IMG/VR virus record: IMGVR_UViG_3300033571_010419
Location: 1 to 22,831 of that record
From: a virus
DNA length: 22,831 nucleotides
Direction: 5' to 3' (one strand)
Positions within the stretch are counted from its first letter, which is position 1; every line of letters starts with the position of its first letter. The notes beneath the pieces were generated by a model that was not told where the DNA came from, searched no databases, and worked only from the letters and a program-made list of their open reading frames with translations. The translations under genes were made by a program, and so were the position numbers. Below are positions 3,092 through 22,831 of the stretch, piece by piece.

Positions 3092-3177
3092 GCACGGATG
3101 TGTACTCTGCCACCCATATTGAGGACGCTCGTTAGGAGTACTTCAATGCGGTGGCACCAGAAGGAGGACACACCACC

Positions 3178-4053
3178 ATGATTTCGCTACTTGAGTTTTT
3201 TGAGACGATCTATGCCCCGCTGAAGCTTCGTGGGAAATCCGAAAACACCACGAGGCTTTATCACTGCACCCTTCGCTCTTTTGCGAAGTGGCTCGAACGT
3301 CAGCCGACGCTCGATGACTTGGAAGACCTGACGCTGGCACGCTTCCTCGCGAAGCGTGCCAGCGAACGGTCTGCGTTCACTGCCGAAAAGGAGAGGACTC
3401 AGCTACTGAGTCTCGCTCGCTTCGCCTGTGACCGTGGCCTCTTAAAGACTCGACCGTGCGTCCCACCAGCAACGCTGCCCGAACGGATACCGACGGCGTG
3501 GACGATCGATCAGATTCGATCGTTGATCCGTGCGACCGACAAGGAGGTCGGCACTGTCGATGGAGTTCCGACGAGTCTCTATTTTCGGGCACTCGTGAGT
3601 GTTCTTTGGGAGACTGCTGAGCGTGTCGGCGCGATCATGGGGACGCAAGTCCTCGACTATCAACAAGGTCAACTGCTCGTCAGGAGCGAGTATCGAAAGG
3701 GACGGAAGAGAGACAAACTCTATTCCCTCTCCCTTGAGACTCAGCACCTCGTCGATCAGTTGTGCCGTGGCAAGAAGCAGGGTCAGGCAATCTTCAGTTG
3801 GGACAAGTTCAAGAACATGCTCTGGCATTCGTTTGGAAGGATCGTCAAGCGTGCTGGCCTCGACGGCGGACGCAAGACGAAATTTCACATGATTAGACGC
3901 AGCGCAGCGACTCACTACGCTGCTCGTGGCGGTGATGCAACGGCGATGCTTGATCATTCATCGCCCAGAATCGCCAAAGCGTATTATGTCGATCCTCGTT
4001 TCATTGAAACGGGACCGAAGCCTTGCGACGTGCTGCCAAGGATCAGTGAATGA
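3178..4053 (+). CDS. int: Tyrosine recombinase (phage integrase)
   Basis: This 291-residue protein has the two-domain layout of a tyrosine integrase. Residues 1-85 form the core-binding SAM-like domain (LEFFETIYAPLKL, LRSFAKWLE). Residues from about 105 form the catalytic domain. The catalytic set is visible: Arg149 in ETAERVGAI, a Lys in YRKGRKRDK near 174-180, His237 and Arg240 in FHMIRRSA, His260 in MLDHSS and the nucleophile Tyr269 or Tyr270 in AKAYY. It would catalyse attP x attB recombination. The start at ATG 3178 is supported by AAGGAGGA at 3161-3168; a GTG at 3151 is less likely. It is shorter than lambda Int and lacks an obvious arm-binding N-domain. It is convergent with the deaminase gene. 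Confidence 0.93.
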   Translation: MISLLEFFETIYAPLKLRGKSENTTRLYHCTLRSFAKWLERQPTLDDLEDLTLARFLAKRASERSAFTAEKERTQLLSLARFACDRGLLKTRPCVPPATLPERIPTAWTIDQIRSLIRATDKEVGTVDGVPTSLYFRALVSVLWETAERVGAIMGTQVLDYQQGQLLVRSEYRKGRKRDKLYSLSLETQHLVDQLCRGKKQGQAIFSWDKFKNMLWHSFGRIVKRAGLDGGRKTKFHMIRRSAATHYAARGGDATAMLDHSSPRIAKAYYVDPRFIETGPKPCDVLPRISE

Positions 4054-4118: not shown

Positions 4119-4604
4119 TTAGACTGAGATGTCTCGATCGTCGAATCGAATCGACTCACCAACTGTTCCAGCAAGCCAGCGAGTGGCGACACCGGCCTCT
4201 TGCATCATCTGCTCCGCCATCGCGATGTCGCGTTCCCATCGCTCAGGCGTTGCCGCTCGAAGCGACGCAAGGCCGACGACCTCTGCGATTCCGGCACAGA
4301 TGATCCCTCTTGCACAGTCTGCACATGAGAACCACGGGGCGTAAAGAGTCGCCTCGTGCGTGCAGATGCCAGCCGCAGCAGCCGCGTAGATCGCGTTCCT
4401 CTCGGCGTGTTCCATGTACTTGTACTTGCGTGGCGGCTCCAGTCGCGAGAGCGTGCGAAACACTCCCGGCGGGAGTTGATTCGCAGCGTAGATCGGGACG
4501 CCACGCTTCGACACGAGGATCGCACCGACGTGCGTGCGAGGGTCGTGCGACTCTTGTCTGGCGATCCGGCAGGCTTGCTTCAGGTAGTCAAGTTCTGGCG
4601 TCAT
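4119..4604 (-). CDS. Deoxycytidylate (dCMP) deaminase-like protein
   Basis: This 161-residue protein has the zinc cytidine/deoxycytidylate deaminase motifs. EHAERNAIY near residue 65 supplies the zinc His and catalytic Glu (HAE), and SCADCARGII near residue 93 supplies the two zinc Cys (CxxC). The position before the first Cys is Ser instead of the usual Pro of PCxxC. dCMP deaminases make dUMP for dTTP synthesis; a role on another cytosine nucleotide cannot be excluded. The ATG at 4604 overlaps the upstream diphosphohydrolase-like gene by 17 bases, so the two are probably coupled. It is the last gene of the leftward late operon before the convergent integrase. Confidence 0.85.
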   Translation of the reverse strand: MTPELDYLKQACRIARQESHDPRTHVGAILVSKRGVPIYAANQLPPGVFRTLSRLEPPRKYKYMEHAERNAIYAAAAAGICTHEATLYAPWFSCADCARGIICAGIAEVVGLASLRAATPERWERDIAMAEQMMQEAGVATRWLAGTVGESIRFDDRDISV

Positions 4605-5196
4605 AGTGCGTCGGAGACTTGTCGGAGTGCAACTCTCGCAGCCGCTTCACGTGAGGCGTGAGCGAGTCGATCAGCTTGCGGTGACCGCCGGGAAACTGAC
4701 GATCGTCCTTGAGCTTCCCGGCAGCTTGGCAGTCGACGATGATCGCGAGGCAGGCGAGAGCCGCCGACAGGTGGGGCACGCCTTCCTCGTCTTCGTTCTC
4801 GCCCTCGAACCACGCCGCCAGATGCCTCTGGCACGCGTCCACGTAGACGCTGGAGCGGACTCCGGTGTGTCGCCAGTTGCTGCGGCCATACTTCAGGGCA
4901 CCGTTCAGGAGAGCGATACAGCCCATTGCTGACGCCGTCGTCGGCCAGAGGTGCAGCGGCAGCTTGTCGGTGCCGACGACGTCCTTGGGGTTGTCAGGCT
5001 CTGGAGAGGCCTGTCGCGACGCGTAGACCGCCGCCGAGGTCTCGGTCATGGTCTTCCAAGCTTCGATGACGCCGCTGCTCACAGAGAACACGCCCGGCAG
5101 CGGAGTCGCGCAGTCCATGTCGACCGACGCTTCGAGGTCGTCGGCGATCTCGTCGTCGTCATCACTGGCAATAGTATCCGTACTTTCGTTGATCAC
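4588..5196 (-). CDS. dATP/dGTP diphosphohydrolase-like protein (DUF5664 type)
   Basis: This 202-residue protein starts at GTG 5196, with AGGAGGAATCTCA before it and a GTGA overlap with the upstream stop. The first 75 residues are acidic and low in complexity (SDDDDEIADD). The family core follows: NPKDVVGTDKLPLHLWPTTA, ALKYGRSNWR, SSVYVDACQRHLAAWFEGE, then EEGVPHLSAALACLAIIVD. These match the phage family whose characterised members (MazZ type) hydrolyse dATP and dGTP to monophosphates, in some phages as part of 2-aminoadenine DNA synthesis. Many members occur in ordinary phages. Metal ligands are probably the Glu/Asp/His residues of the last three motifs. It is coupled with the dCMP deaminase-like gene. 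Confidence 0.75.
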   Translation of the reverse strand: MINESTDTIASDDDDEIADDLEASVDMDCATPLPGVFSVSSGVIEAWKTMTETSAAVYASRQASPEPDNPKDVVGTDKLPLHLWPTTASAMGCIALLNGALKYGRSNWRHTGVRSSVYVDACQRHLAAWFEGENEDEEGVPHLSAALACLAIIVDCQAAGKLKDDRQFPGGHRKLIDSLTPHVKRLRELHSDKSPTHYDART

Positions 5197-5468
5197 TGAG
5201 ATTCCTCCTGAATCCTGTACCCGAGACTCCAAAGAATCTTAGCCAGATCGCGGCCAGTCTGCGTGACAGACTCCTCCGAGATCGTGGGGCCAAGGGCGGC
5301 GTGGAGTCCCTCGTGCAACTCGATTTCGAGTCTCTTTCTACCCTCAAGCTTGGAATGGATCAACACTTTTCTCTTGTCGAACTCAGTCCAGCCGTCTGCC
5401 GTGCCCTTGAGCGGCGAATAACGCCAGAGCCATTTCTGGCTGTCGATTTGGAAGTGGTGGTCGCTCAA
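5193..5468 (-). CDS. HExxH putative zinc metallopeptidase-like phage protein
   Basis: This 91-residue protein contains ELHEGLHAAL, an HExxH zinc-peptidase motif (HEGLH), followed by ESVTQTGRDLAKILWSLGYR. This combination is frequent in a group of small SprT-like phage proteins whose activity is not established. The start is set at TTG 5468-5466. That TTG overlaps the giant gene's TGA as TTGA, AAGGGA precedes it, and the resulting N-terminus (SDHHFQIDSQKWLWRY) matches the expected size. A GTG at 5540 would give 115 residues but would overlap the giant gene by 76 bases with no ribosome site. Whether it cleaves proteins is unknown. Confidence 0.7.
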   Translation of the reverse strand: MSDHHFQIDSQKWLWRYSPLKGTADGWTEFDKRKVLIHSKLEGRKRLEIELHEGLHAALGPTISEESVTQTGRDLAKILWSLGYRIQEESQ

Positions 5469-8400
5469 GTCGTGTCCCTTTTGCCACAGACGTCCATTGA
5501 CCCACTGTTTCCATAGTTGTTCGAGAACAAGTCGCTCCACTTAATAACTTGCGAAGAAACTGACAAGCTTCGATCACAGTCGCCGCTGACTGAAACTGAA
5601 GGCGGGCTAGAGTACGGACGTGTATTCAGATGACCTGACTCAATCCATCTGTTGCAAGTTAAGTTTGTGACCTCAGATAGTCGCCCAAATGTGTCGGAAT
5701 TAGTTTCACCACCCCAAGAAAGCACAAAGTTTACGTCCTGTCGCCGGGTAGGCGGCGAGTATTCCGTCTGGTATGAATCCCACTTGATTGGGTATTGCGT
5801 TGCATTCCACTGGGTAAATGATTCCGCTAGTCCGCTCCTGAATGCCAACCCAACGACAGACTCAGAGAAGTAACCGGAAGTCTCGTAAACCAGAACCAAA
5901 GGAGGGCGAGACGATGAGTATCCAGACCCGCCGCTGATTACCGAAATACTTTGAACTACTCCACCGGAGCATACCGCTGTAGCTAAAGCACCTTCCCCGT
6001 ATCCGTCGTGGATGATGACCGCCGGAGAGATGTAGCCACTGCCGCCGCCTGATATGGCGACCGACGTCACTCTTCCGCTTTCAGAAACAATGCAGGACGC
6101 AACGCATGGCACGTGCCTTAGAATCCCACCCGAGACGTCAATCTTTGTTCCTCGGACGTTGTAGCCGCTCGCTGCGTTTGTTATTGAAACTGACTGCACA
6201 GCACCTGAGCCGTCGAGAGCGGCGGACGCCGTCATGCCAACGCCAGACTCGCTGTTGAAAATGACCTCTGGGAACCTGCCCTGCTCAAATCGAAGACCAG
6301 ACCAACCGAATCTGTTTGATCCAGAGAGTGGATCAGTCCAGCTAACGATCAGGTTGTTCGTTAGCCGTGGGCTTAGGCCTGAGTAGCCAAAATCTCCGAA
6401 CGTGGTTGCGGCCGGGAGCGTCTTGACCTCGCGAGTTCCGACAGACGTTTTAGTGGCCTGCTTGAATTCTTGAACATCGACGTCCAGCGAGTTTGAAAAA
6501 ATAACCTTGGGCTTCTGGAAGAACTTCTCCGTCGGCATTACCAGAGGCTGGGATATTGGACCGCCGGGATAGCTAGTAGGTGCGTTAAATTTGACGCCTA
6601 CTCGCCTGTTGCCGACAATATGCGCCACTGAAGGCACGCAAGTGATGTCCACTTTGACAGCGGGCAATCCGTAGCCGACCTCCTCGAAATTGCTTGAATA
6701 GAAATTGCCGGGATTGATGATGTCGAAGCGTGAAATCGCCCCCTCGATGCGAGACTGGATTCTCCCGAAGGCGTCTTTCACGAGATCGTTTCGCTCATCA
6801 GAAGAGATCAGTCCGTCCCTGAACTTCGACTCCGCCTCAGCGGCGTCTGCATTGCCTCCCCCGGAGATAGAGACCTTGGGCGAAAACTGATATCCGCTGC
6901 CGGAGCTTTTGACTTTCGCGTAAAGGATGGAGGCATTGAGGCGACACGACGCAGAAGCTCCAGAGCCGGACTTTTCAACACTTGCAGACGCCGTCGCGCC
7001 GCTCCCCCCGCCGCCGACGAAAACAACGGTCGGCGGGTAGTCGACGTCATACCCTCTGCCCACGGACGTCACCACAACTCCAGTAATGACGCCGCTCTTG
7101 CTGATTCTGCAAACCCCACTGCCGCCGTCGCCAAGCCCTCTACTGTCGACGACAACCACTCGTGGAGGTGTTTTATATCCACTCCCCCCCGAGTTTAGGG
7201 AAATTGACTGCAACGTCCCCGTTGGCTCGAAGGAAATTGAAGGCGGCGATCTGTATTGCCCCGGCAATGAAAGCTCTACCTTGTCAACGCTCATGGAAAG
7301 CATCGCGAAAACTTTAGCCTGCGAGTTGCTCTGCCCGGTCAGCACAACACCCGGAGCGGACGTGTAGCTGCCGCCTTGGCTCTGGAGAATCACCGACGAG
7401 ACATACTGATCCATGACAGCAGACGCAGACACAGAGGCCACCTCGCCGTCTTCGTAGGTCTCCTCAGCAACTCTCACATCCGGCTCGCCGCTGTATCCCT
7501 CCCCCTTGTAGTTAACTCGTATCGAAGAAACGTAATATCGATCGAGCGATTCGATGTACTGGCAGATCGCCTCTGCTTCCGCAGTCTCTGTCGCGCCGCC
7601 GCCGACAAAGGAAACTGCGGGCGGGGATGTAAACAAGCCTGATCGTCCTGTGATTCTTATGAAAGCAACTCTCTTCAGCATCACTGCTTCGGCAGTTGCT
7701 CCCGAGCCGCCTCCTCCAGTAATCAAAACAGAAGGCTTGCCTTGGTAGCCGTCGCCGCCATCTGCGAGAACGAGCGACGAAACAAACCCAGAGGCAGTAG
7801 CCGTCGCAGAAGCTCGCGATCCCCTGTTTTCAAAAACAACCTTGGGTGCAGCTTTGTATCCCCCCCCACCGCCGTTCAGAGAGATATCTTTGATTGGCCC
7901 CGAAACTATTGCCTCGGCCTCCGCCCCGCTGCCGCCACCGCCCGACAGGGTTAGCACGGGCGCGGATGTGTACCCGTGGCCCGGATCGTCGACGCCGAGA
8001 GACACAAGCTTCCCATCTATGACGGCGTCAACCACGGCGACGTCTGGCGAGGGCTGCTGGGTCTTTACTAGGGGCCAGAGCGTGTAGTTGCTTCCGGGGT
8101 CTTCTATCGCGTATTCGACGTTCTGTACAGCAATCGGCTTGTGCAGATTAGTGTTGTTTACAGCATGGCCGAGGAAGTAGGCGTCGCCGCTTTGCGTAAG
8201 GCCCATATTGCACTCTGCCTTACTAAACCCGTGAGCGTAGCCTGCCGGGGTTGCGGCCAGAGGATTGTCGTAGCTTCGGAGCGAGCCGTCCGTGGTGATT
8301 CCATAATGAATCGAACAGTCCCTGAGTGCAACGTCTAGGTTCTTCAATCCATCATTCAGGCGGTACGGACGCCACATGAGGTCAAAGTTATAAGTGCCTT

Positions 8401-11400
8401 GGAATCCGGAAGAGGGATGTGACGCCGGTAGAAGAACCGCCTTAGCTCCTGATCCAGAACCACCAGATATGACTACTTCAGGAATGCTAGTGAAAAAAGG
8501 AAGAGTCATTATGTTCGGGTTCATAACGCGATCCACAAGCACAGTGTTAGGAATGGCAACACTGTCATCCATGTAGATGCCACCACCGCGTATGCAAATT
8601 TGCCTGAACTGCGGCCACGTCTCCAAGTTGAAGTCAGGCTGCGTGCTGTGCTGAACTGTAAATCCATCTGTGAGGCGTGCAGAGAGTGAGCTTGTGTATG
8701 TCGCGGAACTGTCTCGCGTTGAGAATTCTGGATCGACGAGGCTACCCCAACTTGTTGTATACAAAGGCTTCGCGTAAGGCTTATTCGATAGCGTGATGGT
8801 TCGCGACTGGTTTGAATCTAAAGCACCATACCCCGGACCTAGTATAATCGATGACGTTCTGTTGAATGGGTGAAATGGACTTGTCGAACTAACGACAGGT
8901 TCCTTTACGGAAATCGTCTTGGTTTCGTGAGTCGTGTACGAAAAGACTGGGCTTTGCCTTACGATCGAAACAAATCCTGCGTTTCGTAGTGTAAAGGTAA
9001 TTCCATCAGTGTCTTTATAGCCCTGTCCGGGGTCGGTAATTACGATCTTGTACGAAGTGGCGGGATACACGGAAGCCGCGTCGTCATATTCTTGATTGAT
9101 CGTCACGTCCTCTTCTGGCGGAAGAAGATAGGTGTGCTGATACGAACCAATAGAAAATACTTCCGACGTGGGATTTCCTAGCAAGCCAGAGTTACTTGCC
9201 ATAATCGTGACTTCTGCTTCGTCGGTTTCCCAACTCCAAGTCACGTCGCATTCGGCTTTCCACGCCTTGATCGTGACTTTGTCTTGCTCGCTTAAAGCTG
9301 CCCCTGCTGGGTGCGTAAGTGGAGATGATCCGACGGCAGAGAGCCGCCATAGGTCGTTTTCATTTGAGATGCCGTGAAGAAGCCCCTGATAGTAGAAGAG
9401 CTTTCTAAAAGACGAAGGCGCGTCGAGAAGTGCCTTCCGACCGCCGCCGATGTCACCCAACGATCTCGTGTAGCAAGCTCCAGATGGGATGAAACTGCCC
9501 GAGAATGCCCTGTCGGCTCCTTTTGACTTTTGCCTGACAGGAGAAAGTAAGTCTCGACTGTATTCAAATGGGACGAAGACTTGATAGCCATTTACGAAAA
9601 ACTGGCCCATTGAATCGAAGAACAGTTTGTCTCGGACGGCTTGCGGAATTGATAAATGGTTGAGGGTGTAAATGCCTCTTGTCATGCCGAAATGATTTGA
9701 CCAGATGGCCTCTCTGAATCTATTGGTGCGAGGGCTTGCAATCTCGTAAGAAGGAAACGTAAGGGCAGCGGATAGCGACAGAGCTTCACGAGCGGTGGGG
9801 AAGAAGGCGTAGATGAGGTAATCCACTGTCGAATAAAAATAATCTGACGATGTTGAAAAGAAATAGCCACCTTGATTCGCAATGTCTGCCCTGTTAAATG
9901 CGCCGAACGTGTGAGGCTTGAGCATCGAGCTAGTGCTACTGATCTCGCCATAGAGTCGCTTTGAGTTATCAAACCGAGATTCGTCTGAAGAGTCGACTAT
10001 TGTTAACCCGAACCCGACAGGAGCAGGGGGGGTGCGGGCGGGTTGCAGAGAGCCGCTGTCTGATGACTGAAGACCCCAAGTGTAAGGCCAGCCTCCGGCT
10101 ATGCCGCTGGACTGACCTTCTTTGCAGCATACATCAGTCCAGTCGCTTCTGTCTCCGACGCGGCGCGGGGTAAGTATTTCATCACTTATAAAGACTGATG
10201 GCTCGTATGTGTAACCCGCACCGCCTTCCATTACAGTGCAGGAAAGCTGATAAGTGTCCTGTGAATAGCTGGAACTCTTGTACGACCAACTGGTTGACAA
10301 CTCTAGTCCGCCGCCTCCGACATTGTTGCTGTAACAAAGAACAGCAAGCGGCGGTGGGGACTCTGGCCTGTGATGTTCGGTAACTAACGGGCTTATCCAC
10401 TGCGTTTGCTCAGGAACAGTTCTTGAGAACAGGTACTCAGGCGCATAGAAATCTGCACCCAACCCGCCAATGCCGGTCTTCTCGTCGACTGAGCCCCTGA
10501 GTGTGCCAAAAGAAATGCTTTTTGTGAGCGGTCGAAGTGGCGGGCCAGACTGGTAGACACCCCAAGGCGTGTACGGCTTGTCCTTATAGATGCTGTTATT
10601 CAGCAAAGGATCGTTGGCGTAGTCGACATAATTCTCAAGAGTTGGGGAGTTGCAAACAAACGCCGCCCCCCCCGCGAATCGGTCAACTTCAGTCCATCTC
10701 CCAGACGGCTCATACGGGCTTGGAACTCCGTCGAGGTATACGTATGGGGAATCCACTGTGCGAGGTGACTTGCTTGCCTGCGAAGGAGCGACTATTGCAA
10801 AGTTCGGCCTAAAGGGAGCGACTTGTGGGTATGTGTAAGAAGGCCAAGTGACCTGAATAACGCCCGGCGACTTTCTTACGGGGGGTGTGTCTGGAAAAAG
10901 TATTGTCCAGTCACCATTGCGTGAATTGAATGGCTCAACCAAGAGCGGCAGATCGTCATCCTCGTGGCTTACTAATTTGACGGACGGCCTGATCGTTGAA
11001 TAATCGATGTCGCCAAGGATCGATCTGTTGTCGCCCCCTGAATACGGAACAGAGTTCGAGTACAGGTAAGAGCAAGTCGTTGCCCCCGCGTGCATTTTGC
11101 CGTTGCCTACAGTAATGGTGTCTAAGCCGAGGTCGTCAATCCTTGAAACGGACGACGGCGATAGATTCACAATCGCTGCTGTAAGGTCTGTCTTGTAGGG
11201 CAACGAAATGACCACCCGTGCGGGTGAATTAACTCGGTGGCTGTATCCAGAGCCGCCATTTACGACCTTCATGTCAACCTGCGTTGAAATAACACCAAAC
11301 CTAATGTTCTGCGAAAACGCGGCTCCGCCCGTTAGGGTTCCGGATAGCACCACAGAGGGGAGGTACATGTACTCTCCACCAAAAGTGCAGGAGACCGAGG

Positions 11401-12208
11401 CAATCACGCCCCCCTCGCCTAGCGTGACCTCAAACGTGGCCGCTTTCGAGTTTGTGTCTCTGGCGTCGGCGGTCACAATGACGGAGGGTGGGGAAGAAAA
11501 GGACGGGGCCGGATATATGTAGCGGTATAGCTGGGCGTTGTCGTTAAAAGTTAAGCTATACAATATTGAGCAGGAAACTGACGCGCCTTGCCCGTAGTAG
11601 TCTCTCTGAACAGTCACAGACGAAGGCTGTATCGAAGTGACTAGGCCAAGGTAGATCAAATAAAAATCGTATTCCACAGTGAAGTCGAGTACATCCAGTG
11701 ACTCAACACTGGAGTTCAGAACGGCACGAGGCGTTCTGCTACCGAAATCGGCTTCGTCGAACCCTGTGTTGACTCCCCAAGTCCAGACGGTTCCGTCTCG
11801 CTTCAGTGCCACCGCATGCCCACCGCTCGCAGAAACCTTCTTCCAAGGCCCGGAAGAAATCTTCTTCGGAAATATGCTCGAATTGAGAGTTCCGTCTCCA
11901 AGAGGGCCGTCCCCCCATCCCCAAAGGCTTCCGTCAGCAAGTATGCCGTAACCCCTTGCGTCTGCTTGGCTCAGGCTCACCCAGTCGCCTTGGCGTGGTA
12001 TCGTTGTGCCACCAGTTCCAAGCAGAGGCGGGTTCAGGGGGTACTGAACTGCATACTTGCCGCGACCGAGTGCTGCCGACTTTATGTCGCTCCGGTTTAT
12101 GTAATCCAACCGGTAGAAGCCGTTGCTTGTGCTATACACAGACAGCGACAAGGCGTAGCTCGACCATGAATACGCTAGATTCGTTGGGCAGCAGCATCTC
12201 ATAGTCAC
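5465..12208 (-). CDS. Giant tail-tip/fibre protein with RCC1-like and GGSGY repeats
   Basis: This single 2247-residue frame starts at GTG 12208, overlapping the previous stop as GTGA; ATG 12202 is an alternative. The N-terminus has three consecutive Cys (RCCCPTN). Residues about 74-165 carry two clear RCC1-type propeller repeats (YGILADGSLWGWG and HAVALKRDGTVWTWG). Weaker RCC1-like pieces appear near residues 503, 690, 945 and 1305. About 18 Gly-rich units of the type GGSGY..PP.V.ISGGGGSGA.A.A are scattered from residue 320 and dense from about 1370 to 1790 and 1990 to 2110. The gene lies at the distal end of the tail module, so a receptor-binding fibre or tail-tip role is likely. No peptidase, lyase or hydrolase motif was seen. 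Its DNA appears more AT-rich than the neighbouring genes. Confidence 0.85.
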   Translation of the reverse strand: MTMRCCCPTNLAYSWSSYALSLSVYSTSNGFYRLDYINRSDIKSAALGRGKYAVQYPLNPPLLGTGGTTIPRQGDWVSLSQADARGYGILADGSLWGWGDGPLGDGTLNSSIFPKKISSGPWKKVSASGGHAVALKRDGTVWTWGVNTGFDEADFGSRTPRAVLNSSVESLDVLDFTVEYDFYLIYLGLVTSIQPSSVTVQRDYYGQGASVSCSILYSLTFNDNAQLYRYIYPAPSFSSPPSVIVTADARDTNSKAATFEVTLGEGGVIASVSCTFGGEYMYLPSVVLSGTLTGGAAFSQNIRFGVISTQVDMKVVNGGSGYSHRVNSPARVVISLPYKTDLTAAIVNLSPSSVSRIDDLGLDTITVGNGKMHAGATTCSYLYSNSVPYSGGDNRSILGDIDYSTIRPSVKLVSHEDDDLPLLVEPFNSRNGDWTILFPDTPPVRKSPGVIQVTWPSYTYPQVAPFRPNFAIVAPSQASKSPRTVDSPYVYLDGVPSPYEPSGRWTEVDRFAGGAAFVCNSPTLENYVDYANDPLLNNSIYKDKPYTPWGVYQSGPPLRPLTKSISFGTLRGSVDEKTGIGGLGADFYAPEYLFSRTVPEQTQWISPLVTEHHRPESPPPLAVLCYSNNVGGGGLELSTSWSYKSSSYSQDTYQLSCTVMEGGAGYTYEPSVFISDEILTPRRVGDRSDWTDVCCKEGQSSGIAGGWPYTWGLQSSDSGSLQPARTPPAPVGFGLTIVDSSDESRFDNSKRLYGEISSTSSMLKPHTFGAFNRADIANQGGYFFSTSSDYFYSTVDYLIYAFFPTAREALSLSAALTFPSYEIASPRTNRFREAIWSNHFGMTRGIYTLNHLSIPQAVRDKLFFDSMGQFFVNGYQVFVPFEYSRDLLSPVRQKSKGADRAFSGSFIPSGACYTRSLGDIGGGRKALLDAPSSFRKLFYYQGLLHGISNENDLWRLSAVGSSPLTHPAGAALSEQDKVTIKAWKAECDVTWSWETDEAEVTIMASNSGLLGNPTSEVFSIGSYQHTYLLPPEEDVTINQEYDDAASVYPATSYKIVITDPGQGYKDTDGITFTLRNAGFVSIVRQSPVFSYTTHETKTISVKEPVVSSTSPFHPFNRTSSIILGPGYGALDSNQSRTITLSNKPYAKPLYTTSWGSLVDPEFSTRDSSATYTSSLSARLTDGFTVQHSTQPDFNLETWPQFRQICIRGGGIYMDDSVAIPNTVLVDRVMNPNIMTLPFFTSIPEVVISGGSGSGAKAVLLPASHPSSGFQGTYNFDLMWRPYRLNDGLKNLDVALRDCSIHYGITTDGSLRSYDNPLAATPAGYAHGFSKAECNMGLTQSGDAYFLGHAVNNTNLHKPIAVQNVEYAIEDPGSNYTLWPLVKTQQPSPDVAVVDAVIDGKLVSLGVDDPGHGYTSAPVLTLSGGGGSGAEAEAIVSGPIKDISLNGGGGGYKAAPKVVFENRGSRASATATASGFVSSLVLADGGDGYQGKPSVLITGGGGSGATAEAVMLKRVAFIRITGRSGLFTSPPAVSFVGGGATETAEAEAICQYIESLDRYYVSSIRVNYKGEGYSGEPDVRVAEETYEDGEVASVSASAVMDQYVSSVILQSQGGSYTSAPGVVLTGQSNSQAKVFAMLSMSVDKVELSLPGQYRSPPSISFEPTGTLQSISLNSGGSGYKTPPRVVVVDSRGLGDGGSGVCRISKSGVITGVVVTSVGRGYDVDYPPTVVFVGGGGSGATASASVEKSGSGASASCRLNASILYAKVKSSGSGYQFSPKVSISGGGNADAAEAESKFRDGLISSDERNDLVKDAFGRIQSRIEGAISRFDIINPGNFYSSNFEEVGYGLPAVKVDITCVPSVAHIVGNRRVGVKFNAPTSYPGGPISQPLVMPTEKFFQKPKVIFSNSLDVDVQEFKQATKTSVGTREVKTLPAATTFGDFGYSGLSPRLTNNLIVSWTDPLSGSNRFGWSGLRFEQGRFPEVIFNSESGVGMTASAALDGSGAVQSVSITNAASGYNVRGTKIDVSGGILRHVPCVASCIVSESGRVTSVAISGGGSGYISPAVIIHDGYGEGALATAVCSGGVVQSISVISGGSGYSSSRPPLVLVYETSGYFSESVVGLAFRSGLAESFTQWNATQYPIKWDSYQTEYSPPTRRQDVNFVLSWGGETNSDTFGRLSEVTNLTCNRWIESGHLNTRPYSSPPSVSVSGDCDRSLSVSSQVIKWSDLFSNNYGNSGSMDVCGKRDTT
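5890..6240 (-). repeat. C-terminal block of GGSGY protein repeats
   Basis: Three units lie near the C-terminus of the giant protein: NAASGYNVRGTKIDVSGG, AISGGGSGYISPAVIIHDG and SVISGGSGYSSSRPPLVLV. They alternate with short Ala/Ser strands (GALATAVCSGG, ASCIVSESGRV). They are diverged at DNA level, so this is an old protein repeat and not a recent DNA repeat. Confidence 0.7.
6850..8110 (-). repeat. Dense array of GGSGY protein repeats
   Basis: Within the giant gene about a dozen units follow each other at 30-45 residue intervals, for example DDPGHGYTSAPVLTLSGGGG, ADGGDGYQGKPSVLITGGGG and NSGGSGYKTPPRVVVV. Each has a Gly-rich turn with an aromatic residue, a Pro-containing strand, then GGGGSGA and an Ala-rich strand. 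The pattern suggests a long beta-rich shaft or lattice built from repeated strands. Confidence 0.8.
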
Positions 12209-13432: not shown

Positions 13433-16400
13433 TTACCGTGGTGCTGAGAGTTGGGCGATGACTGGGGCAGCGTCCTTGTTCTTGGACGCCTCGGCGAGAA
13501 TCTTCGTATTGCGTGCGACTTCAAGCTGAGCCTTGAGGGACGGGTTGTCGTTGCCGCGAAGTATGCGGAAGAACGTGTCGATGCCCCCCTTGCTGCGAGA
13601 GTCAGAGGCATCGACGCCTCTACGGTCCTGCTTCGTTGAGTCGAGTGCTGGCTTCAAGTCCTCTTGGAGTTGGGCTTGGAGGTTTTTCTTGCCCTGCTCG
13701 AACTCTGGGGTGCCCTCGCCGAAAGCGGACTTCAGCTTTTCGAGGTCTTCTTGGAACTTCTGGACTGGGCTTTGCTGCTCAGCACCGGGGATCGACTCGT
13801 TGAGCTTCCGCATGGCGGACTTGAACTTCTCCGGGTCGCTCGCGCCGCCCTTGCCGTATGCTTCTTCGATCTTTGCCCTCTGCTCTTTAATCTTGCCGCC
13901 GAAGTCGCTGGCACTCTCACCGCCGAGAGCCTCGTCTCGCTTGCGTCTTGCGTTAGCCCTCGCCTGATCTGCCTGATCTTTCGTGATCCTCTTCTCGGGA
14001 TCAGTCGAGTTTGCAGCTTCTTCGATCTTCTTCATCTGCTCTTGGAAGACTTGCTGAGGAGTCTTCTCAATGCCGAGAGACGAGAGGAGATTGTCGCGAG
14101 CCGTCTTGACTGCACGGTCGAATAGGGCAAGCTGATCAGCATTGCCCTTGAGCTTCTCTCGCACCGCGTCGAGAGGCTGGCCTGCCATGTCGAACTGGTC
14201 TGCAATGTTGTCGATTGCACCGGAAAACTCCTCGAACGGAGTCTTGGCGACGCCAAGCGACGACATAAAGTCGTCTCGAAGCTTTCTGGCCGCAGAGCCA
14301 GCCTGCTCCTGAGAGATGACGTTCTCGCCTACGGCGTCGGCAAGCTTGTCTTGAGCCTCTTGCAACTTCACGATCGAAGGCTTTTGAACACCAAGCGACT
14401 CCTCGATGGCGGTCTTGCTCTTCTTGATCGCCTCCTGATACTCCCTGAACGCATCCGGCGACAGCGACGCCTGAATCTCAGCCATCGACTTGCCCGTCAC
14501 GCCAAACGCGTCGTTGACCTTGTCGACACCAGCCTTCAACGCCTGAGCGGGCGTTGCGTCGAGACCGGCGGCGGATCGCCTGTCCATGTCGAGCTTATTC
14601 TGTGCCACTGCGAGCTTGGCCGGGTCTTTGCCGCCGCCGAAAGCCTCGTCGATCTTCGCCTGACGTTCACGTAGCTGACCTCCGACGTCGGCACCGGCAC
14701 CGAGAGCCTCGTCTCGCTTTCGCGTGGCGACGGTCTTCGCCCGATCGGCCTGCTCTTGCGTGATCCTCTTGTTGGGGTCCGTGGCGTTCACCGCGTCGTC
14801 GATTTTCCTAATCTGTTCGTCAAACACTTCCTGCGGAGTCTTCTCGATGCCAAGAGAGGCAAGAAGGTTGTCACGAGACTCCTTCACCGCCCGGTCGAAC
14901 GCCGCAAGTTGCTCGGCGTTGCCCTTGAGCTTCTCACGAACGACGTCGATCGGCTGGCCTGCGAAGCCGAACTGCTTTGCGATATTGTCGAGCGACGACG
15001 AGAACGTCTCGAAAGGAGTCTTACTTACGCCGACGGCAGAAGCGAAGTCCTCTGCGGCCTTCTTGAGTTCCGCATTCATCTCGTCGGTGTTTATCAGGCC
15101 AGACTCGGCAGCTTTCTGGACGTCACGGCTCCGCTCCTGAAGCTGAGACTGAGCAGATTTTCCGACGAGGGTCTCGCGGGTTTTCTTGCTGAGGTCCGCC
15201 CTCGCTAGAATCTTCTCGGAATCGGTCAGCGACTTATTATTGTTGATCTTCTCCAGTTCCTTCTCGAACTTCTGAACTGGACTCAAGAATGCGTCGTCGA
15301 GTGCCTTGCGAATTCCCTCTGCGAATGAAGTATCAAGCTCGATTTCGATCTTGTTCTTGCGATCGAACTCCCTCTTAACCTCCTCAGCCGCGATGGACGC
15401 CTGCTCTTGAGCGTTGGTCGAGTCGAGTTCCAGCTTGACTGTCTCGAATTGGTCTCTTGAGATCAGGTTCGCGTCGAAATCTGACTGATTCTTCTCCTTC
15501 TTTTGCTTAATCTCCGTAGCGAAAAAACCTTCCTGCTGCTTCTTTTTGATCTCTTCAAGAGCCTTTATGTACTCAGACTTGTACTCAGCAGCCTTGGCCT
15601 TGATCGCGTCAGAGGTTGGAAAGAACTTGTCGTCGATGACAGTTCCGGCACCGATGTCTCTGGTTGATTTCGTTGCAGCTTTCGCCGCGTCGTCGAGTTG
15701 CTTGTAGAGTTCGAGATTCTTCTTCAGAGCGATTGCTGGACTGTCGTCCTTGTATGACTTCAGGTTTTCTCTAAGGTTCTCGGAGTTTTTCTTGGTTTGT
15801 TCGTTGAAATCTTCGAGCGTTATCCGTCCCTCTGACAGTTTCTTCTGAAGTTCCCCGAAGCCCTCCTGAGCAGCCTTCGCCGCAGCCGCACCCTCTGATC
15901 CATACCTTGCAGATTCAATAATAAGTCCGTTGATCTCTTCCCTTGCTTCTGTTACCGACTCCTTAATCTCCTCAAACGCAGGAGCCTTCGCGCCTTTGAA
16001 CTCGGCGGCAGCACGCGAAGCCTCGGCAAGCTCTTCTACCGATGCACGGGCTGAGTCGATCGATTCCGGTGCGTCTTTGAACCCAAGGAAAGACTTCGCC
16101 AGTCCGTATGCCCACTTGCCAGCCCTGACGAGTACCGTCGCCAAGTACGTGATCGCCGCGCCAACAACAGCGAGCACCCCGACAGCGATGGCGATCGGAC
16201 CCAACGCCGCAGCCCACGCTCTTGCAAAATTAACAGCGGCTATCAGCGAAGTCGCACTGGCTAGCGAAATCGCAGACGTATAGACTCCCCACGCGGCGGC
16301 ACCTGCCGCGACATAGATTACAAGCTGTGCGAGTCCTGCCAGAACATAGCCAACTGCCGCCCCGAAACCCCGGACTGCAACACCGGACAGGCTCAAGAGT

Positions 16401-18697
16401 CCAGTAAATTCTTCCGCTGGTCGCATAGCCGCCGCGAGGCCTGACGCGAGACTCGCTGCGCCCGCGATAAAATCCTCAAGCGGCTTCATCGCCGCGTCGA
16501 AGCCAGCCTTGATGCTATCAAAGATAGCAGCGAACAAAGCAAATGCCTGTACGGCAGCGGCAACCTGAATGACCACCGCGACCATGCGGAGGAAGATGTT
16601 GATCACTCTTCCAACCATCTCAATGATGATCGCAAGCGGCTTGCTGACGTCGGCGAGCATACTCGCAAGAGGTGCCAAGGCAGAAGAAACGCCGCCCTTC
16701 ACATCTGCTGCGAAGTTGTTGAACGCCTTCTGTAGCTCTACGAACGGAATGAGAAGAGTCCTTTTGAGGCTCTTTCCTGCAAACGCCAGCCTGTCGAACG
16801 AGGCCTCGACGTCGAGCAGCCTCTGAGTATCAAGGGAGTTCAAGGCTCCGCCAATTCTCGCGAAGTCCTGCTCGATCTCTTCAAGCTCCTTCAAGGCTGG
16901 AAGGATCATTCCTCCTGTTCGCCCGAACAAGTCCATCGCGATCGATGTTCGTTTCGCTGCGTCTTCGACCTTAGACAACTCTTCGGCAACAAGTCGGAAT
17001 GCCTCGTCAGGTCTTTTTTCCTTGATCTCTTCCGCCGATATTCCAAGCTTGTCAAACGCGATCTTTGCTTCTCGGACGCTCTCCGTGTTGAACTGTCCGG
17101 ACTTAATCTTGCTCAGGTTCTGATAGAAAGACTGCTGAGCCTTGCCGAGCATTCTCATGCTCACCTGAGTATTGTCGGCGGCGAGCTTTAGCTTCTCCAT
17201 CTCCTGAGTCGTCGTCCCGAACCGCTCAGCCATCTGGTCGAGAGACTGAGTGGCAACGCTAAGATGCTCAAGTTCGTGGAAGAACTTCCCAGTCGCGACC
17301 GCTGCTGCCATCGCACCGACGGCGGCGAGCGGGAACGTAGCCGCGAGACCAGCGATCGCCGTGGACGCTCCGCCTGTCACTCCTGCTGCAACGGCAGTCC
17401 CGGCGGCATAAGCCCTCACGCCGCCAGCAAGCGCGCCGAACATCACTGAGGTTACAGCAACGCGGGCCGCGAGTGCTGCAAAGCCGACGCCTGTCGTTTT
17501 CTCATTTGAAGCTGCGGTAACCAAACTGAGAACGGTCTGAATTCGCGTAAGCCTGTCAATCAAGCTGGCAGAATTTGAGACGATCGAAGTGATGCCTTGG
17601 CCGAGCCCCTGAAGCACCATCTGGAAGAACTGCGTGGCAGTTGATGAGCTATACAATGCTCCTGCAACAAGCCTGTAGGCCGACGTCGTGGCCGTCGCAC
17701 CTGCGGCAACACCGGCAAGAGCCCCTACGTATTCAGCCCCTCTTTCAACATAAGCCTGAGCCTCTTCGCTCATTCCGGAGGAGGCAACCTTCGCCGCAGT
17801 CACAACGGCAGCGTATACGCCGATCGAGGTTGCCGCCGATGCGAAAGCACTCGCGAGGCTCCCTACCGTTACGGCAGTAGCCGCCGCGCTGCCTCCTGCG
17901 GCGCGGGAGAGCGTGCCGATGCCCCCAAGCTGAGTAACGAACGCCCGGAAGCCAGCAACTGACGCCGACGCTGCGGCAGGAAGAGATTCTCTATACGTTT
18001 TAACGAGAGTCTCGGCAGCGTCATACGATCTGCCGACGGCAACAACTGTTGCCTCCGCCGCGTTCGAGATTCCCTTAAACCCATCCTGACCAGCCTTTGA
18101 TATCGCGGTTGCGGCGTCGCCTATCGCATTCACCGCGTTAGCGGTCTGGTTTGACGCGCTCTTGATTTCGGCATATGCCTTCGTCACGCCGCCAACCATT
18201 GCGGAGGCGGAAGAGCGAAACTGATCGAAACGCTCAGCACCTTCGACAACTTCCTCGCCGGAGCGAGAGAACAACTCCCTAGAGGTGCTTGCGAACTGCT
18301 TCACTACGCCAGTCGCCGTAGAGAGGTCCGTGGTGTCGGCCTTTACCTCAATCTCGGCAGGCTTGTCTTTAGAAATCTCTTCGACGGCTGATGATACGGC
18401 AGACGTGTCTGCCGTGAATGACACCGAGGCGAGCTTGTCTGCCTCGTCAATCGCCGTCTTCAAGTCGGTCACGTCTGCGTCGATGCGTATCGACTTCTCG
18501 ACGTCAAGCTTGTTGAGAGCCGCGTTAGCTACAGCAACCTGCGCGGACAGGACTGAGTTGAACTGCCTTATGTCTTCAGTCGCCCCAGTAATCTGCTCAC
18601 GAAGGCTCTGGAAGAAGCTGATCGCATCTTCCACGCCCTTCTGGAGACCGCCCGTGTCGGCAGTGAACTGGGCGACAATGCTGCCAACAGTTGCCAT
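13433..18697 (-). CDS. Tail tape measure protein
   Basis: This 1754-residue protein has the classic tape measure composition: long Ala/Glu/Lys-rich helices with central hydrophobic segments. The N-terminus begins MATVGSIVAQFTADTGGLQK with helical coiled coils to about residue 160. Hydrophobic stretches follow at about 250-480, 686-733 (VINIFLRMVAVVIQVAAAVQ) and 773-870. The C-terminal third (about 1200-1690) contains duplicated modules starting GVSKTPFETF and GVAKTPFEEF. Such proteins set tail length and help DNA entry. At 0.15 nm per residue this would predict a tail of about 260 nm. It follows the chaperone pair by 3 bases, the standard order. No lysozyme or peptidase domain motif was noticed. 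Confidence 0.93.
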   Translation of the reverse strand: MATVGSIVAQFTADTGGLQKGVEDAISFFQSLREQITGATEDIRQFNSVLSAQVAVANAALNKLDVEKSIRIDADVTDLKTAIDEADKLASVSFTADTSAVSSAVEEISKDKPAEIEVKADTTDLSTATGVVKQFASTSRELFSRSGEEVVEGAERFDQFRSSASAMVGGVTKAYAEIKSASNQTANAVNAIGDAATAISKAGQDGFKGISNAAEATVVAVGRSYDAAETLVKTYRESLPAAASASVAGFRAFVTQLGGIGTLSRAAGGSAAATAVTVGSLASAFASAATSIGVYAAVVTAAKVASSGMSEEAQAYVERGAEYVGALAGVAAGATATTSAYRLVAGALYSSSTATQFFQMVLQGLGQGITSIVSNSASLIDRLTRIQTVLSLVTAASNEKTTGVGFAALAARVAVTSVMFGALAGGVRAYAAGTAVAAGVTGGASTAIAGLAATFPLAAVGAMAAAVATGKFFHELEHLSVATQSLDQMAERFGTTTQEMEKLKLAADNTQVSMRMLGKAQQSFYQNLSKIKSGQFNTESVREAKIAFDKLGISAEEIKEKRPDEAFRLVAEELSKVEDAAKRTSIAMDLFGRTGGMILPALKELEEIEQDFARIGGALNSLDTQRLLDVEASFDRLAFAGKSLKRTLLIPFVELQKAFNNFAADVKGGVSSALAPLASMLADVSKPLAIIIEMVGRVINIFLRMVAVVIQVAAAVQAFALFAAIFDSIKAGFDAAMKPLEDFIAGAASLASGLAAAMRPAEEFTGLLSLSGVAVRGFGAAVGYVLAGLAQLVIYVAAGAAAWGVYTSAISLASATSLIAAVNFARAWAAALGPIAIAVGVLAVVGAAITYLATVLVRAGKWAYGLAKSFLGFKDAPESIDSARASVEELAEASRAAAEFKGAKAPAFEEIKESVTEAREEINGLIIESARYGSEGAAAAKAAQEGFGELQKKLSEGRITLEDFNEQTKKNSENLRENLKSYKDDSPAIALKKNLELYKQLDDAAKAATKSTRDIGAGTVIDDKFFPTSDAIKAKAAEYKSEYIKALEEIKKKQQEGFFATEIKQKKEKNQSDFDANLISRDQFETVKLELDSTNAQEQASIAAEEVKREFDRKNKIEIELDTSFAEGIRKALDDAFLSPVQKFEKELEKINNNKSLTDSEKILARADLSKKTRETLVGKSAQSQLQERSRDVQKAAESGLINTDEMNAELKKAAEDFASAVGVSKTPFETFSSSLDNIAKQFGFAGQPIDVVREKLKGNAEQLAAFDRAVKESRDNLLASLGIEKTPQEVFDEQIRKIDDAVNATDPNKRITQEQADRAKTVATRKRDEALGAGADVGGQLRERQAKIDEAFGGGKDPAKLAVAQNKLDMDRRSAAGLDATPAQALKAGVDKVNDAFGVTGKSMAEIQASLSPDAFREYQEAIKKSKTAIEESLGVQKPSIVKLQEAQDKLADAVGENVISQEQAGSAARKLRDDFMSSLGVAKTPFEEFSGAIDNIADQFDMAGQPLDAVREKLKGNADQLALFDRAVKTARDNLLSSLGIEKTPQQVFQEQMKKIEEAANSTDPEKRITKDQADQARANARRKRDEALGGESASDFGGKIKEQRAKIEEAYGKGGASDPEKFKSAMRKLNESIPGAEQQSPVQKFQEDLEKLKSAFGEGTPEFEQGKKNLQAQLQEDLKPALDSTKQDRRGVDASDSRSKGGIDTFFRILRGNDNPSLKAQLEVARNTKILAEASKNKDAAPVIAQLSAPR
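13823..15048 (-). repeat. Internal tandem duplication in the tape measure gene
   Basis: Two modules of about 150 residues repeat at a period of 777 bases (259 codons), measured at the shared stretch encoding REKLKGNA. Copy A spans about 15048-14600 and copy B about 14271-13823. Shared segments include DVVREKLKGNAEQLAAFDRA versus DAVREKLKGNADQLALFDRA, and SRDNLLASLGIEKTPQEVF versus ARDNLLSSLGIEKTPQQVF. A weaker third version lies between them (ATPAQALKAGVDKVNDAFGV). Confidence 0.85.
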
Positions 18698-18700
18698 CGC

Positions 18701-19329
18701 TTAGCCCCTCAACTTCATGAGTTCGCCAAGCATCTGCCCTGAGGTCTGCTGTGGCTTCCGGCTCGACGGCATGATCATCTCCTCTTCGAGGTTCTTACTG
18801 CCCCATGCCGTGCAAAGAGCCGTGGCAAGTCGAGCGGTCTGTCGCCACTCATCTCCCCACGGCTCTATGAGCCAAAAGCTCTCCCATTCCGCCAACTCTT
18901 CGGCGTCGCAAGACTCCAAGAGTTGCCTGTGCGTCATCCCGAGGGCCAGTGCCAGTCGAAACTCGAAACGCCGCCTCGGACGGCTTAGGAGTTTCCCGCC
19001 ATCTCCTCGACGTCGTCCTTCGTGAACCGATTCAATTTCATGCAAGCCGTGAAGAGCTTGTCGAGGACAGCCGCCGACTTCTCGCCAAGCTGAGGAATCT
19101 CAGCCTCAGTGAAAAGACGATTGCCTTCCTCGTCACACAAGCACTTAGCCACGAGCTTCGCGCGGACCATATCGACCGACTTGTTGCCGCCGACGAACTC
19201 TGCCTCGAAACGGTCACGCTCGGTGCCGCTCATCACCCTGATCTTCACGGAGCCGCTCCACTCAGGAACTTCCATGTCGATCATCTTCTTGTCGTCCGCC
19301 GCCAGAATCGCTGCCTTGCTGAGAGCCAT
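18701..19329 (-). CDS. Tail assembly chaperone fusion made by -1 frameshift (lambda gpGT-like)
   Basis: The second chaperone frame (18701-18991) has no start of its own where its domain begins. A -1 shift at GGGAAAC (18997-18991) joins it to the upstream gene, giving about 209 residues: 113 from the first frame, then LLSRPRRRFEFRLALALGMT and the rest. The downstream part (EFRLALALGMTHRQLLES, AEELAEWESFWLIEPWGDEW) resembles the T domain of lambda GT and the related DUF4035 proteins. In lambda, G and GT coat the tape measure protein and recruit tube subunits; the same is expected here. The fused frame ends 3 bases before the tape measure start. Confidence 0.8.
18970..18997 (-). promoter_or_regulatory. 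-1 programmed ribosomal frameshift signal
   Basis: The minus strand reads G GGA AAC in the phase of the first chaperone frame, a canonical X XXY YYZ slippery heptamer at 18997-18991. The 0-frame stop TAA lies at 18987-18985. After a 6-base spacer, GCCGTC-CGA-GGCGGC (18984-18970) can form a 6-base-pair hairpin, at the distance usual for a stimulatory structure. All three elements are read directly in the sequence. Confidence 0.85.
18985..19329 (-). CDS. Tail assembly chaperone (lambda gpG-like)
   Basis: This 114-residue protein starts at ATG 19329 with AAGGAG upstream. It has a short strand-rich N-terminal part (VPEWSGSVKIRVMSGTERDR), helical middle segments, and the C-terminus FTKDDVEEMAGNS that is typical of siphovirus chaperones ahead of the frameshift site. 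It would bind the tape measure protein during tail assembly, in excess over the frameshift product. Its position between the tube and tape measure genes supports the call. The last residues overlap the slippery heptamer. Confidence 0.85.
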   Translation of the reverse strand: MALSKAAILAADDKKMIDMEVPEWSGSVKIRVMSGTERDRFEAEFVGGNKSVDMVRAKLVAKCLCDEEGNRLFTEAEIPQLGEKSAAVLDKLFTACMKLNRFTKDDVEEMAGNS

Positions 19330-19331
19330 GC

Positions 19332-19760
19332 CTACTCCTTGTATCCAGACAATTTAAACGTGACACTTCCCCTCACGTATTCACCGACGCTCGCATCGAG
19401 ATCGACCCTAGTCAGAATAGCCTGATACGAGACAAGCACATCCCCAGTATCTCTTCCGCTGAAGTCTCTCTCTCGAACAGTTAACAACTTTTTCAAGCCG
19501 ATCGCGTCTGGCAGTGCGTGCATCTGCCTGCTGATCGCGAAGAACTCAATGGTGAGTTCTCCGGGGTCAGCGACGCATGAATCCACCTCCCTCCAGATCA
19601 TCTTCCGGTCCGTGTTTTCCGGATCGGAAGTGAACTGCGAGTCCATGCTCGTCAAATCGACCTCGACAGCAGACGAAGCACTCCTCTTAAGGCTAGTCAC
19701 AGCGAAGGCGTTGCTGCCCCAGCTAATACTTAGGCAATGAGAAGAGAATGGCTCTGCCAT
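19332..19760 (-). CDS. Tail tube-like protein, second copy
   Basis: This 142-residue protein is a paralogue of the next gene upstream. Both share an SxxWG/SxxFG N-terminal strand, a V/I-D-L/V-TS-M/L-D/E-S segment, an EL..EF strand (GELTIEFFAI versus DQLNVEFIGL), and a C-terminal pattern VGEYVRGSVTFKLSG versus VGELIKGSMSLRLTQ. This is the strand layout of siphovirus tail tube proteins. The ATG at 19760 follows the upstream stop by 4 bases with a weak ribosome site, in contrast to the strong site of the first copy, so it may be made in lower amounts. It could be a minor tube or tube-terminating protein. Confidence 0.75.
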   Translation of the reverse strand: MAEPFSSHCLSISWGSNAFAVTSLKRSASSAVEVDLTSMDSQFTSDPENTDRKMIWREVDSCVADPGELTIEFFAISRQMHALPDAIGLKKLLTVRERDFSGRDTGDVLVSYQAILTRVDLDASVGEYVRGSVTFKLSGYKE

Positions 19761-19764
19761 TTCA

Positions 19765-20136
19765 CTAGTTCTGAGTCAGACGCAGCGACATGGAACCCTT
19801 GATCAACTCGCCGACCTGAGCCGTCACGTCCGCAGAGGTGCAGAGAGCGGCGGTAGGCAGGCCAGCCGTGAAAGCCGCGTTACTGCCAGTGCCGTCGATC
19901 GACCACGTAATCGAAGCCGTGGAGGTCATGTTGGGCAGAGTCAGGCCGATGAATTCGACATTCAACTGATCTCCGTCGCGGATCGAGCCGAGGCGGTACG
20001 AACGGAACGAACCGTGGGCACTCTCAAGCGACGTGACGTCGATTTCGGGAGTCGCCTTTTGCACAGCGATCTGGGTCGCGGTGAACTTGGTGCCGCCAAA
20101 CGAGAAACCAATACCCTGCGAAGATTCAAATGGCAT
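19765..20136 (-). CDS. Major tail tube-like protein, first copy
   Basis: This 123-residue protein begins MPFESSQGIGFSFGGTKF and is strand-rich, with SIRDGDQLNVEFIGL, SITWSIDGTGSNAAF and the C-terminus VGELIKGSMSLRLTQN. Order and pattern match siphovirus major tail proteins. ATG 20136 is preceded by AAGGAGGGACGA, the strongest ribosome site of the tail module, as expected for an abundant structural protein. No sheath gene is present, which supports a long non-contractile tail. It is followed by a paralogue, and either could be the main tube subunit; the strong start favours this one. Confidence 0.75.
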   Translation of the reverse strand: MPFESSQGIGFSFGGTKFTATQIAVQKATPEIDVTSLESAHGSFRSYRLGSIRDGDQLNVEFIGLTLPNMTSTASITWSIDGTGSNAAFTAGLPTAALCTSADVTAQVGELIKGSMSLRLTQN

Positions 20137-21902: not shown

Positions 21903-22081
21903 GGCTTCGCTTTCCGCCTTTCGACAGTCATCGTCGCCTGCTCGACCTTGATCGACCTCGACTCTTCAGTGATGGGCTTGGCAATGCCGTCGGAAATCCA
22001 ACCCTTAGCAGTGACGTCGAAGATTTCGACGACGTCGCCCTCCTTGTGCCAGCCCCAGTCCTTCAGCATCTTGATCTTCAT
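21899..22081 (-). CDS. Small unknown protein with SH3-like strand pattern
   Basis: This 60-residue protein begins MKIKMLKDWGWHKEGDVVEI and continues as short strands (FDVTAKGWISDGIAKPI) before a charged tail. Small proteins with this 'K.L.DWG..K.GDVVE' opening are frequent between capsid or packaging genes and connector genes in tailed phages; their role is not established. ATG 22081 overlaps the upstream TGA as ATGA. A start at 22117 would extend into the glycosyltransferase frame and is not needed. Confidence 0.7.
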   Translation of the reverse strand: MKIKMLKDWGWHKEGDVVEIFDVTAKGWISDGIAKPITEESRSIKVEQATMTVERRKAKP

Positions 22082-22831
22082 TTCGATGACCTCTCTGCGT
22101 GTTCCTGCGATCCCCATGCCTCCGGTGGTCGCCGTCCGTCGTTATTCCAAAAGTGCGTCGGATACTGATGAATTGCCTTGAGCCGCTGGTCAGGCCACGT
22201 GATCACGAGTTCCGCGTGACCGATTGCGACTTGAGGGCAGACCGCCAGCTTGTTGCCGCACTCTCGGAACTTGTGCCAGAAGAAGATGTCAGGGTCTTGC
22301 CGGTCGGCACCCCAGTCGCCGTCCTCGCCGGGGACGCCAAGGAACCACGGCTTCGCCATCCTGCGAAGAGCCGCCGTCCGAATAAGAGTCAGACCGAAGT
22401 GAGCCGTATCGACGATCTGAGCAGGCTTCTCCCACCAGTCGGCTGGCATCGTGACAGTCTGCTCGCCCTTGCCGCCGAGGCCTTCGGGCGTAAACATGAG
22501 TTGCTTATCGTCTCGCTTCATTTGAAGCGGAGCGATCGCGTCGACGCCTGAGATCAGGATCGCCGACAACAGACGGGGCAGGCACTCAGGCTCGAAGACG
22601 CTGTCGTAGTCAAGAGTGCAGATGAACTCGTTGCCAGTCTCTTCCTTAGACAGGTCCGTGAGAATCCGGGTCATTGTCTGATCCCAGAAAGCCCCAGTCC
22701 CTTTCACGACCTGAATGCCATAAGGGGCAAACGTGCTGGTGACCGTGAAGAAGTTGTCTGTAAAAGCAAGTCGCGGCATGCTTAAGCACGCCGCGACTTT
22801 TACATCATGTTCCACGTTGCCGACGAGAATC
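22078..22831 (-). CDS. GT-A glycosyltransferase-like protein, 5' end open at window edge
   Basis: The frame stays open to the window edge. A GTG at 22815 would give 245 residues, but it has no ribosome site and the preceding codons (ILVGN) read like coding sequence, so the true start may lie outside. The protein has features of a GT-A fold: an N-terminal strand (VKVAACLSMPRL), a CTLDYDSVF segment with a DxD metal/nucleotide-sugar motif (D69-Y-D71 from the GTG), an acceptor-side segment HFGLTLIRTAALRRM, and a late DPDIFFWHKFRECG region with a conserved His (IGHAEL). It would transfer a sugar from a nucleotide sugar; the target is unknown. It stands among head-tail genes, so virion glycosylation is possible. 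Confidence 0.8.
   Translation of the reverse strand, partial: ILVGNVEHDVKVAACLSMPRLAFTDNFFTVTSTFAPYGIQVVKGTGAFWDQTMTRILTDLSKEETGNEFICTLDYDSVFEPECLPRLLSAILISGVDAIAPLQMKRDDKQLMFTPEGLGGKGEQTVTMPADWWEKPAQIVDTAHFGLTLIRTAALRRMAKPWFLGVPGEDGDWGADRQDPDIFFWHKFRECGNKLAVCPQVAIGHAELVITWPDQRLKAIHQYPTHFWNNDGRRPPEAWGSQEHAERSSK
22768..22799 (-). other. Strong hairpin inside the glycosyltransferase-like gene
   Basis: AAGTCGCGGCATGC (22768-22781) and GCACGCCGCGACTT (22786-22799) flank a TTAA loop. In the minus-strand transcript the 14-base stem is complete with one G-U pair. GC then TTTT (22766-22763) follows, so it looks like an intrinsic terminator although it lies in coding sequence. Its role is uncertain. 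Confidence 0.55.

Follow-up and report, generated by a model that had tools for sequence, protein, structure and literature searches.

A very probable lambda-type programmed -1 frameshift in the tail assembly chaperone genes of an uncultured phage and its relatives

The slippery heptamer of phage lambda is GGGAAAG. The lambda proteins gpG and gpGT are reportedly connected by a -1 frameshift, which is said to have been described by Levin in 1993 and by Xu, Hendrix and Duda in 2004. The lambda gpG/gpGT frameshift has been reviewed (PMC5009743), and chaperone frameshifts at GGGAAAC have been predicted for gp18/gp19 of Burkholderia phage KL1 (PMC3483164) and for Caulobacter phage Colossus (PMC3556154). 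The same heptamer has been published for this gene pair in HCTV-1 (PMC5009743), while AAAAAAC is used in the relatives of phiCbK (PMC3556154). The work on PRFect counted 2397 tail-chaperone frameshifts annotated in SEA-PHAGES genomes (PMC10885494). The class of signal, the heptamer and the arrangement presented here are already known, and no new mechanism is added to them.

The DNA studied here (hereafter the window) comprises the 22,831 nucleotides of IMG/VR record IMGVR_UViG_3300033571_010419. As judged from its sequence, the window very probably carries a G/T gene pair expressed by programmed -1 ribosomal frameshifting of the lambda gpG/gpGT type. The order of genes is head-tail connectors, two small genes, G, T and the tape measure gene, with a tail terminator and a neck/completion protein upstream of the G region. 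The G gene occupies positions 18985 to 19329 of the minus strand in the zero frame and encodes a gpG-like tail assembly chaperone of 114 residues. It matches PHROG_344 (tail assembly chaperone, 2.7e-30) and, weakly and under the cut-off, Pfam TAC_13; its homologues in Rhodococcus and Streptomyces phages are annotated as tail assembly chaperones. The T domain lies in the -1 frame of the same strand (18701 to 18991, LLSRPRRRFEFRLALALG..., stop TAA at 18703-18701) and matches PF06223 (Phage_tail_T, Minor tail protein T) at 29.1 bits, above the cut-off of 25.9, and PHROG_337 at 5.2e-9. The tape measure gene (13433 to 18697, minus strand, 1754 residues; PHROG_9483, tail length tape measure protein, 1.5e-10) starts 3 nt past the T stop. 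An earlier note, made from the letters of the window, had described a -1 frameshift cassette in tail chaperone genes with a T-domain-like second frame; the cassette joining G and T is seen in the sequence, and the matches to PHROG_344 and PF06223 agree with that description. Searches of solved structures with G and with T returned nothing meaningful, and tblastn of T against named phages gave no match. The two small genes between the neck/terminator genes and G (19332-19760 and 19765-20136) had no significant match in the family search, and from its position the major tail protein is probably encoded by one of them.

Several other genes of the window were also recognised. A protein of 2247 residues (5465-12208, minus strand), with RCC1-like repeats and many GGGGSGA-type repeats, is a probable tail or adhesion protein. 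A tyrosine integrase (3151-4053, plus strand; PF00589, 6.6e-12) lies on the strand opposite to the tail genes and suggests a temperate phage. Nucleotide-pool genes with dCMP deaminase, dATP/dGTP diphosphohydrolase and MazG domains are present on the minus strand at 4119-5232 and 1084-1533, and a weak, below-cut-off match to glycosyltransferase family 2 (22078-22815, minus strand) adjoins the head-tail connector genes. The window contains no tRNA genes, and no prophage relatives were found in genome contigs in searches with G alone or with the T alignment.

On the minus strand, G ends in ...GAG GAG ATG GCG GGA AAC TCC TAA and is followed by GCCGTCCGAGGCGGC G.... The heptamer G_GGA_AAC (18997-18991) has the phase that a -1 slip requires, and it is separated from a downstream hairpin by the 6-nt spacer TCCTAA (18990-18985), which includes the G stop TAA (18987-18985). 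After the slip, the reading is CTC CTA AGC CGT..., translated as LLSRPRRRFEF..., and continues for 96 residues until TAA, so that the predicted fusion has 113+96 = 209 residues. In these points (phase, spacer and product length) the earlier note was accurate. The bare heptamer was observed three times in the window versus 2.5 expected, and the string therefore says little by itself. In-phase X_XXY_YYZ, however, occurs at 12 of 5747 codons in the genes of the window, and all of the 56 sequences analysed for this carry an in-phase heptamer at this codon of G and at no other codon in G. As read from the sequences, the placement of the heptamer at the G stop, the open T frame past it and its conservation are beyond chance.

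Scans of viral contigs yielded 59 distinct sequences, the window counted, in which G and T are both present. The T frame is at -1 relative to G in all relatives, and a slippery heptamer is kept at the junction in 58 of the 59: GGGAAAC in 32, AAAAAAC in 25 and GGGAAAA in one (L040). The sole sequence without a canonical heptamer is the distant L114, in which G runs beyond the T start. More relatives, with 46-57% identity in G, mostly retain GGGAAAC or AAAAAAC, and the G-T region of IMGVR_UViG_3300032313_000342 is the same as that of the window. The heptamer is consequently not specific to this phage, as had been supposed, being present in 32 of the 59 sequences and also in phiSASD1, Dubu, KL1, Colossus and HCTV-1. 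A change from GGG to AAA replaces the three X bases at once with slipperiness kept; no intermediates were seen, and at least three changes of heptamer type (GGGAAAA included) are needed on the G tree and four on the T tree. Shine-Dalgarno-like 4-mers within 18 nt upstream of the heptamer are present in 28 of the 32 GGGAAAC members and in only 5 of the 25 AAAAAAC members, and on the latter count a dnaX-like upstream stimulator does not qualify as general. L008 appears to be a mosaic with its junction near the slip site; its G groups with that of the window (support 95) and the T data reject the same grouping (p-AU 1.3e-7). For L029, a recombination between G and T is not claimed, the G data being compatible with the window's group (p-AU 0.45).

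The window derives from one metagenomic record of a virus, and the frame break might be attributed to an error of sequencing or assembly or to decay of the gene. The relatives refute this, the same arrangement being found in 58 of the 59 distinct sequences and in named phages, and the columns of T change synonymously while their amino acids are retained; the likelihood of such an artefact is negligible. Slippage of RNA polymerase on a run of A, with GT made from the altered mRNA, could be considered for the 25 of 59 distinct sequences with A6 (AAAAAAC) at the site. GGGAAAC, carried by the window and 31 others, contains no long enough run, however, and the constraint matches the tandem-codon pattern X_XXY_YYZ, leaving transcriptional slippage extremely improbable as the source of GT.

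It is also necessary to consider whether T could be a separate gene with a start of its own inside or after G. Codons that might serve are present in the T frame of the window (e.g., ATG 18937-18935 and TTG 19045), and a separate downstream ORF is annotated in the records of REQ1, Madraxi, Shagrat, Yara and P1312. However, in seven relatives (L023, L032, L035, L038, L086, L088, and L104) ATG, GTG and TTG are all absent from the T-frame upstream stop to +120 nt, and only frameshifting fits in these, since their T frame has no such codon before or near the domain. Moreover, in three others (L007, L031, and L102) a stop codon interrupts the T frame a few bases before the heptamer is reached. The ATG at 18937-18935, the first T-frame ATG after the slip in the window, would drop the near-invariant motif FEFRLALALG, and likewise the start annotated in REQ1 falls past FYFRLAETLG, a stretch matching this motif of T. 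The case named in the earlier note as contrary to frameshifting, a broken heptamer with an intact T frame having its own start, was sought among the 59 sequences and was not found. A separate T gene is accordingly very unlikely.

The nearest approach to a T with its own start is seen in distant Rhodococcus phages (e.g., REQ1 and Madraxi), where T is annotated separately and X_XXY_YYZ was not found in the REQ1 and Madraxi junctions; Jflix2, related to the REQ1-type phages, is annotated as joined. No canonical heptamer is present in L115, L119, L122, and L123 (REQ1, P1312, Shagrat, and Madraxi) and L114, which have N_NNT_TTC near the G end in common (e.g., G_GAT_TTC and G_TCT_TTC), and Jflix2 and L192 have G_GGT_TTC at the equivalent place. 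In the REQ1-type phages and L114, N_NNT_TTC could possibly be a relaxed slip site with T_TTC.

The sequence downstream of the spacer (18984-18970, minus strand) folds as ((((((...)))))), with GCCGUC paired to GGCGGC in 6 bp, one of them U-G, around a CGA loop of 3 nt (-7.7 kcal/mol), in agreement with the short GC hairpin noted earlier. In wider folding windows of 48-86 nt the hairpin is not exceptional (z about 0), nor is it so against synonymous recoding (z -0.65); the 118-nt fold has a z of -2.18, shorter windows being unexceptional. The support for the hairpin is therefore comparative. The T tree used for the comparison was built without the hairpin codons, and it places the window in a clade (SH-aLRT support 98) whose 15 members all have the stem. 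Within this clade only two synonymous changes in total occurred over the five hairpin codons, whereas the 33 remaining four- or six-fold columns average 3.06 changes each (P=0.0004), and the hairpin codons rank lowest among all contiguous runs. Both changes are in L029, one of them turning U-G into C-G and the other altering a loop base. Two-sided compensatory changes were not seen among the relatives compared, and the case for the hairpin therefore rests on synonymous constraint. The hairpin had been thought specific to this phage; it is instead common to a clade of relatives, in which it is probably functional as a stimulator, and it is not family-wide.

The hairpin may, on the other hand, be an incidental by-product of the stretch coding for RPRRR, with the frameshift itself real. 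Of 58 sequences, 21 have a stem of 6 bp or more following a 4-9 nt spacer, and the hairpin is absent from many relatives that retain the heptamer, most AAAAAAC members among them. When SRPRRRFEF is recoded synonymously, 5.9% of the recodings form some stem of 6 bp or longer, which, like the unexceptional folds in wider windows, would be expected of an incidental structure. However, the exact 6-bp stem with a 3-nt loop at the 6-nt spacer arises in just 0.45% of recodings of the same residues, and the synonymous suppression in the T clade would not be anticipated; the same arginine and proline columns are free to vary in relatives without the hairpin. The distant L112 and L113 also share this design, 6 bp with a 3-nt loop, and its 6-nt spacer. 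An incidental origin is therefore regarded as unlikely, although less so than the other alternatives, and a functional hairpin in the window's clade is preferred. Since many relatives keep the heptamer without the hairpin, the conserved unit, as far as the sequences indicate, is the heptamer with the T frame and not the complete cassette; of the two elements whose conservation had been raised earlier, the heptamer is conserved and the hairpin is not beyond its clade. In L195-L197 and L200, GGGAAAC is directly followed by a strong stem unrelated to this hairpin, GCCTGGGAATCCCAGGC, with 7 bp and a 3-nt loop; T has extra residues there, and the stem is possibly a stimulator of independent origin.

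The anatomy of the locus, its family membership, the conservation of the heptamer, the seven start-less T frames and the synonymous constraint on the hairpin are directly supported; the slippage itself, how efficient it is and what G and GT do, which we infer, can be pictured as follows. The majority of ribosomes would translate G and stop at TAA, yielding the protein of 114 residues. In a minority, tRNA-Gly on GGA and tRNA-Asn on AAC would shift back by one base to pair with GGG and AAA, and these ribosomes would continue in the T frame to give GT of 209 residues. In the window's clade, slippage is probably made more frequent by the short GC hairpin, which lies 6 nt downstream and would cause the ribosome to pause. 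If the proteins act as in lambda, G would coat the tape measure protein, and the tail tube subunit would be recruited by the T portion of GT. The heptamer and the hairpin could tentatively be regarded as exchangeable parts in this phage group, the ratio of G to GT being held by trading their strengths, although the odds are rather against it; the reading is drawn from the GGGAAAC members of one T clade, whose hairpin would be under selection, the many AAAAAAC members without one and L029, with both AAAAAAC and the hairpin. Against the frameshift reading stands that A_AAA_AAC is less slippery than A_AAA_AAG in E. coli (PMC5009743), which may not be the host of this phage. The results allow correct annotation of the G and GT genes in a widespread group of uncultured phages, and the natural series of signals, with two heptamers and with or without the hairpin in homologous genes, is useful for tests of the chaperone ratio.

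Compared with the described systems, the window resembles lambda in that the gene pair precedes the tape measure gene, a heptamer lies in phase near the G end and T is joined by a -1 fusion; it differs in its heptamer, GGGAAAC, and in the short downstream hairpin of its clade. Streptomyces phages phiSASD1 (gp35/35.1) and Dubu (gp13/14) have a homologous G with 42% identity, GGGAAAC before the G stop, and genes annotated as joined. However, their stop (TGA) comes immediately after the heptamer and no comparable strong stem is present. KL1 and Colossus, together with the phiCbK relatives, show the same pair of heptamers, GGGAAAC and AAAAAAC, as the relatives of the window, and are likened to it by heptamer and gene pair.
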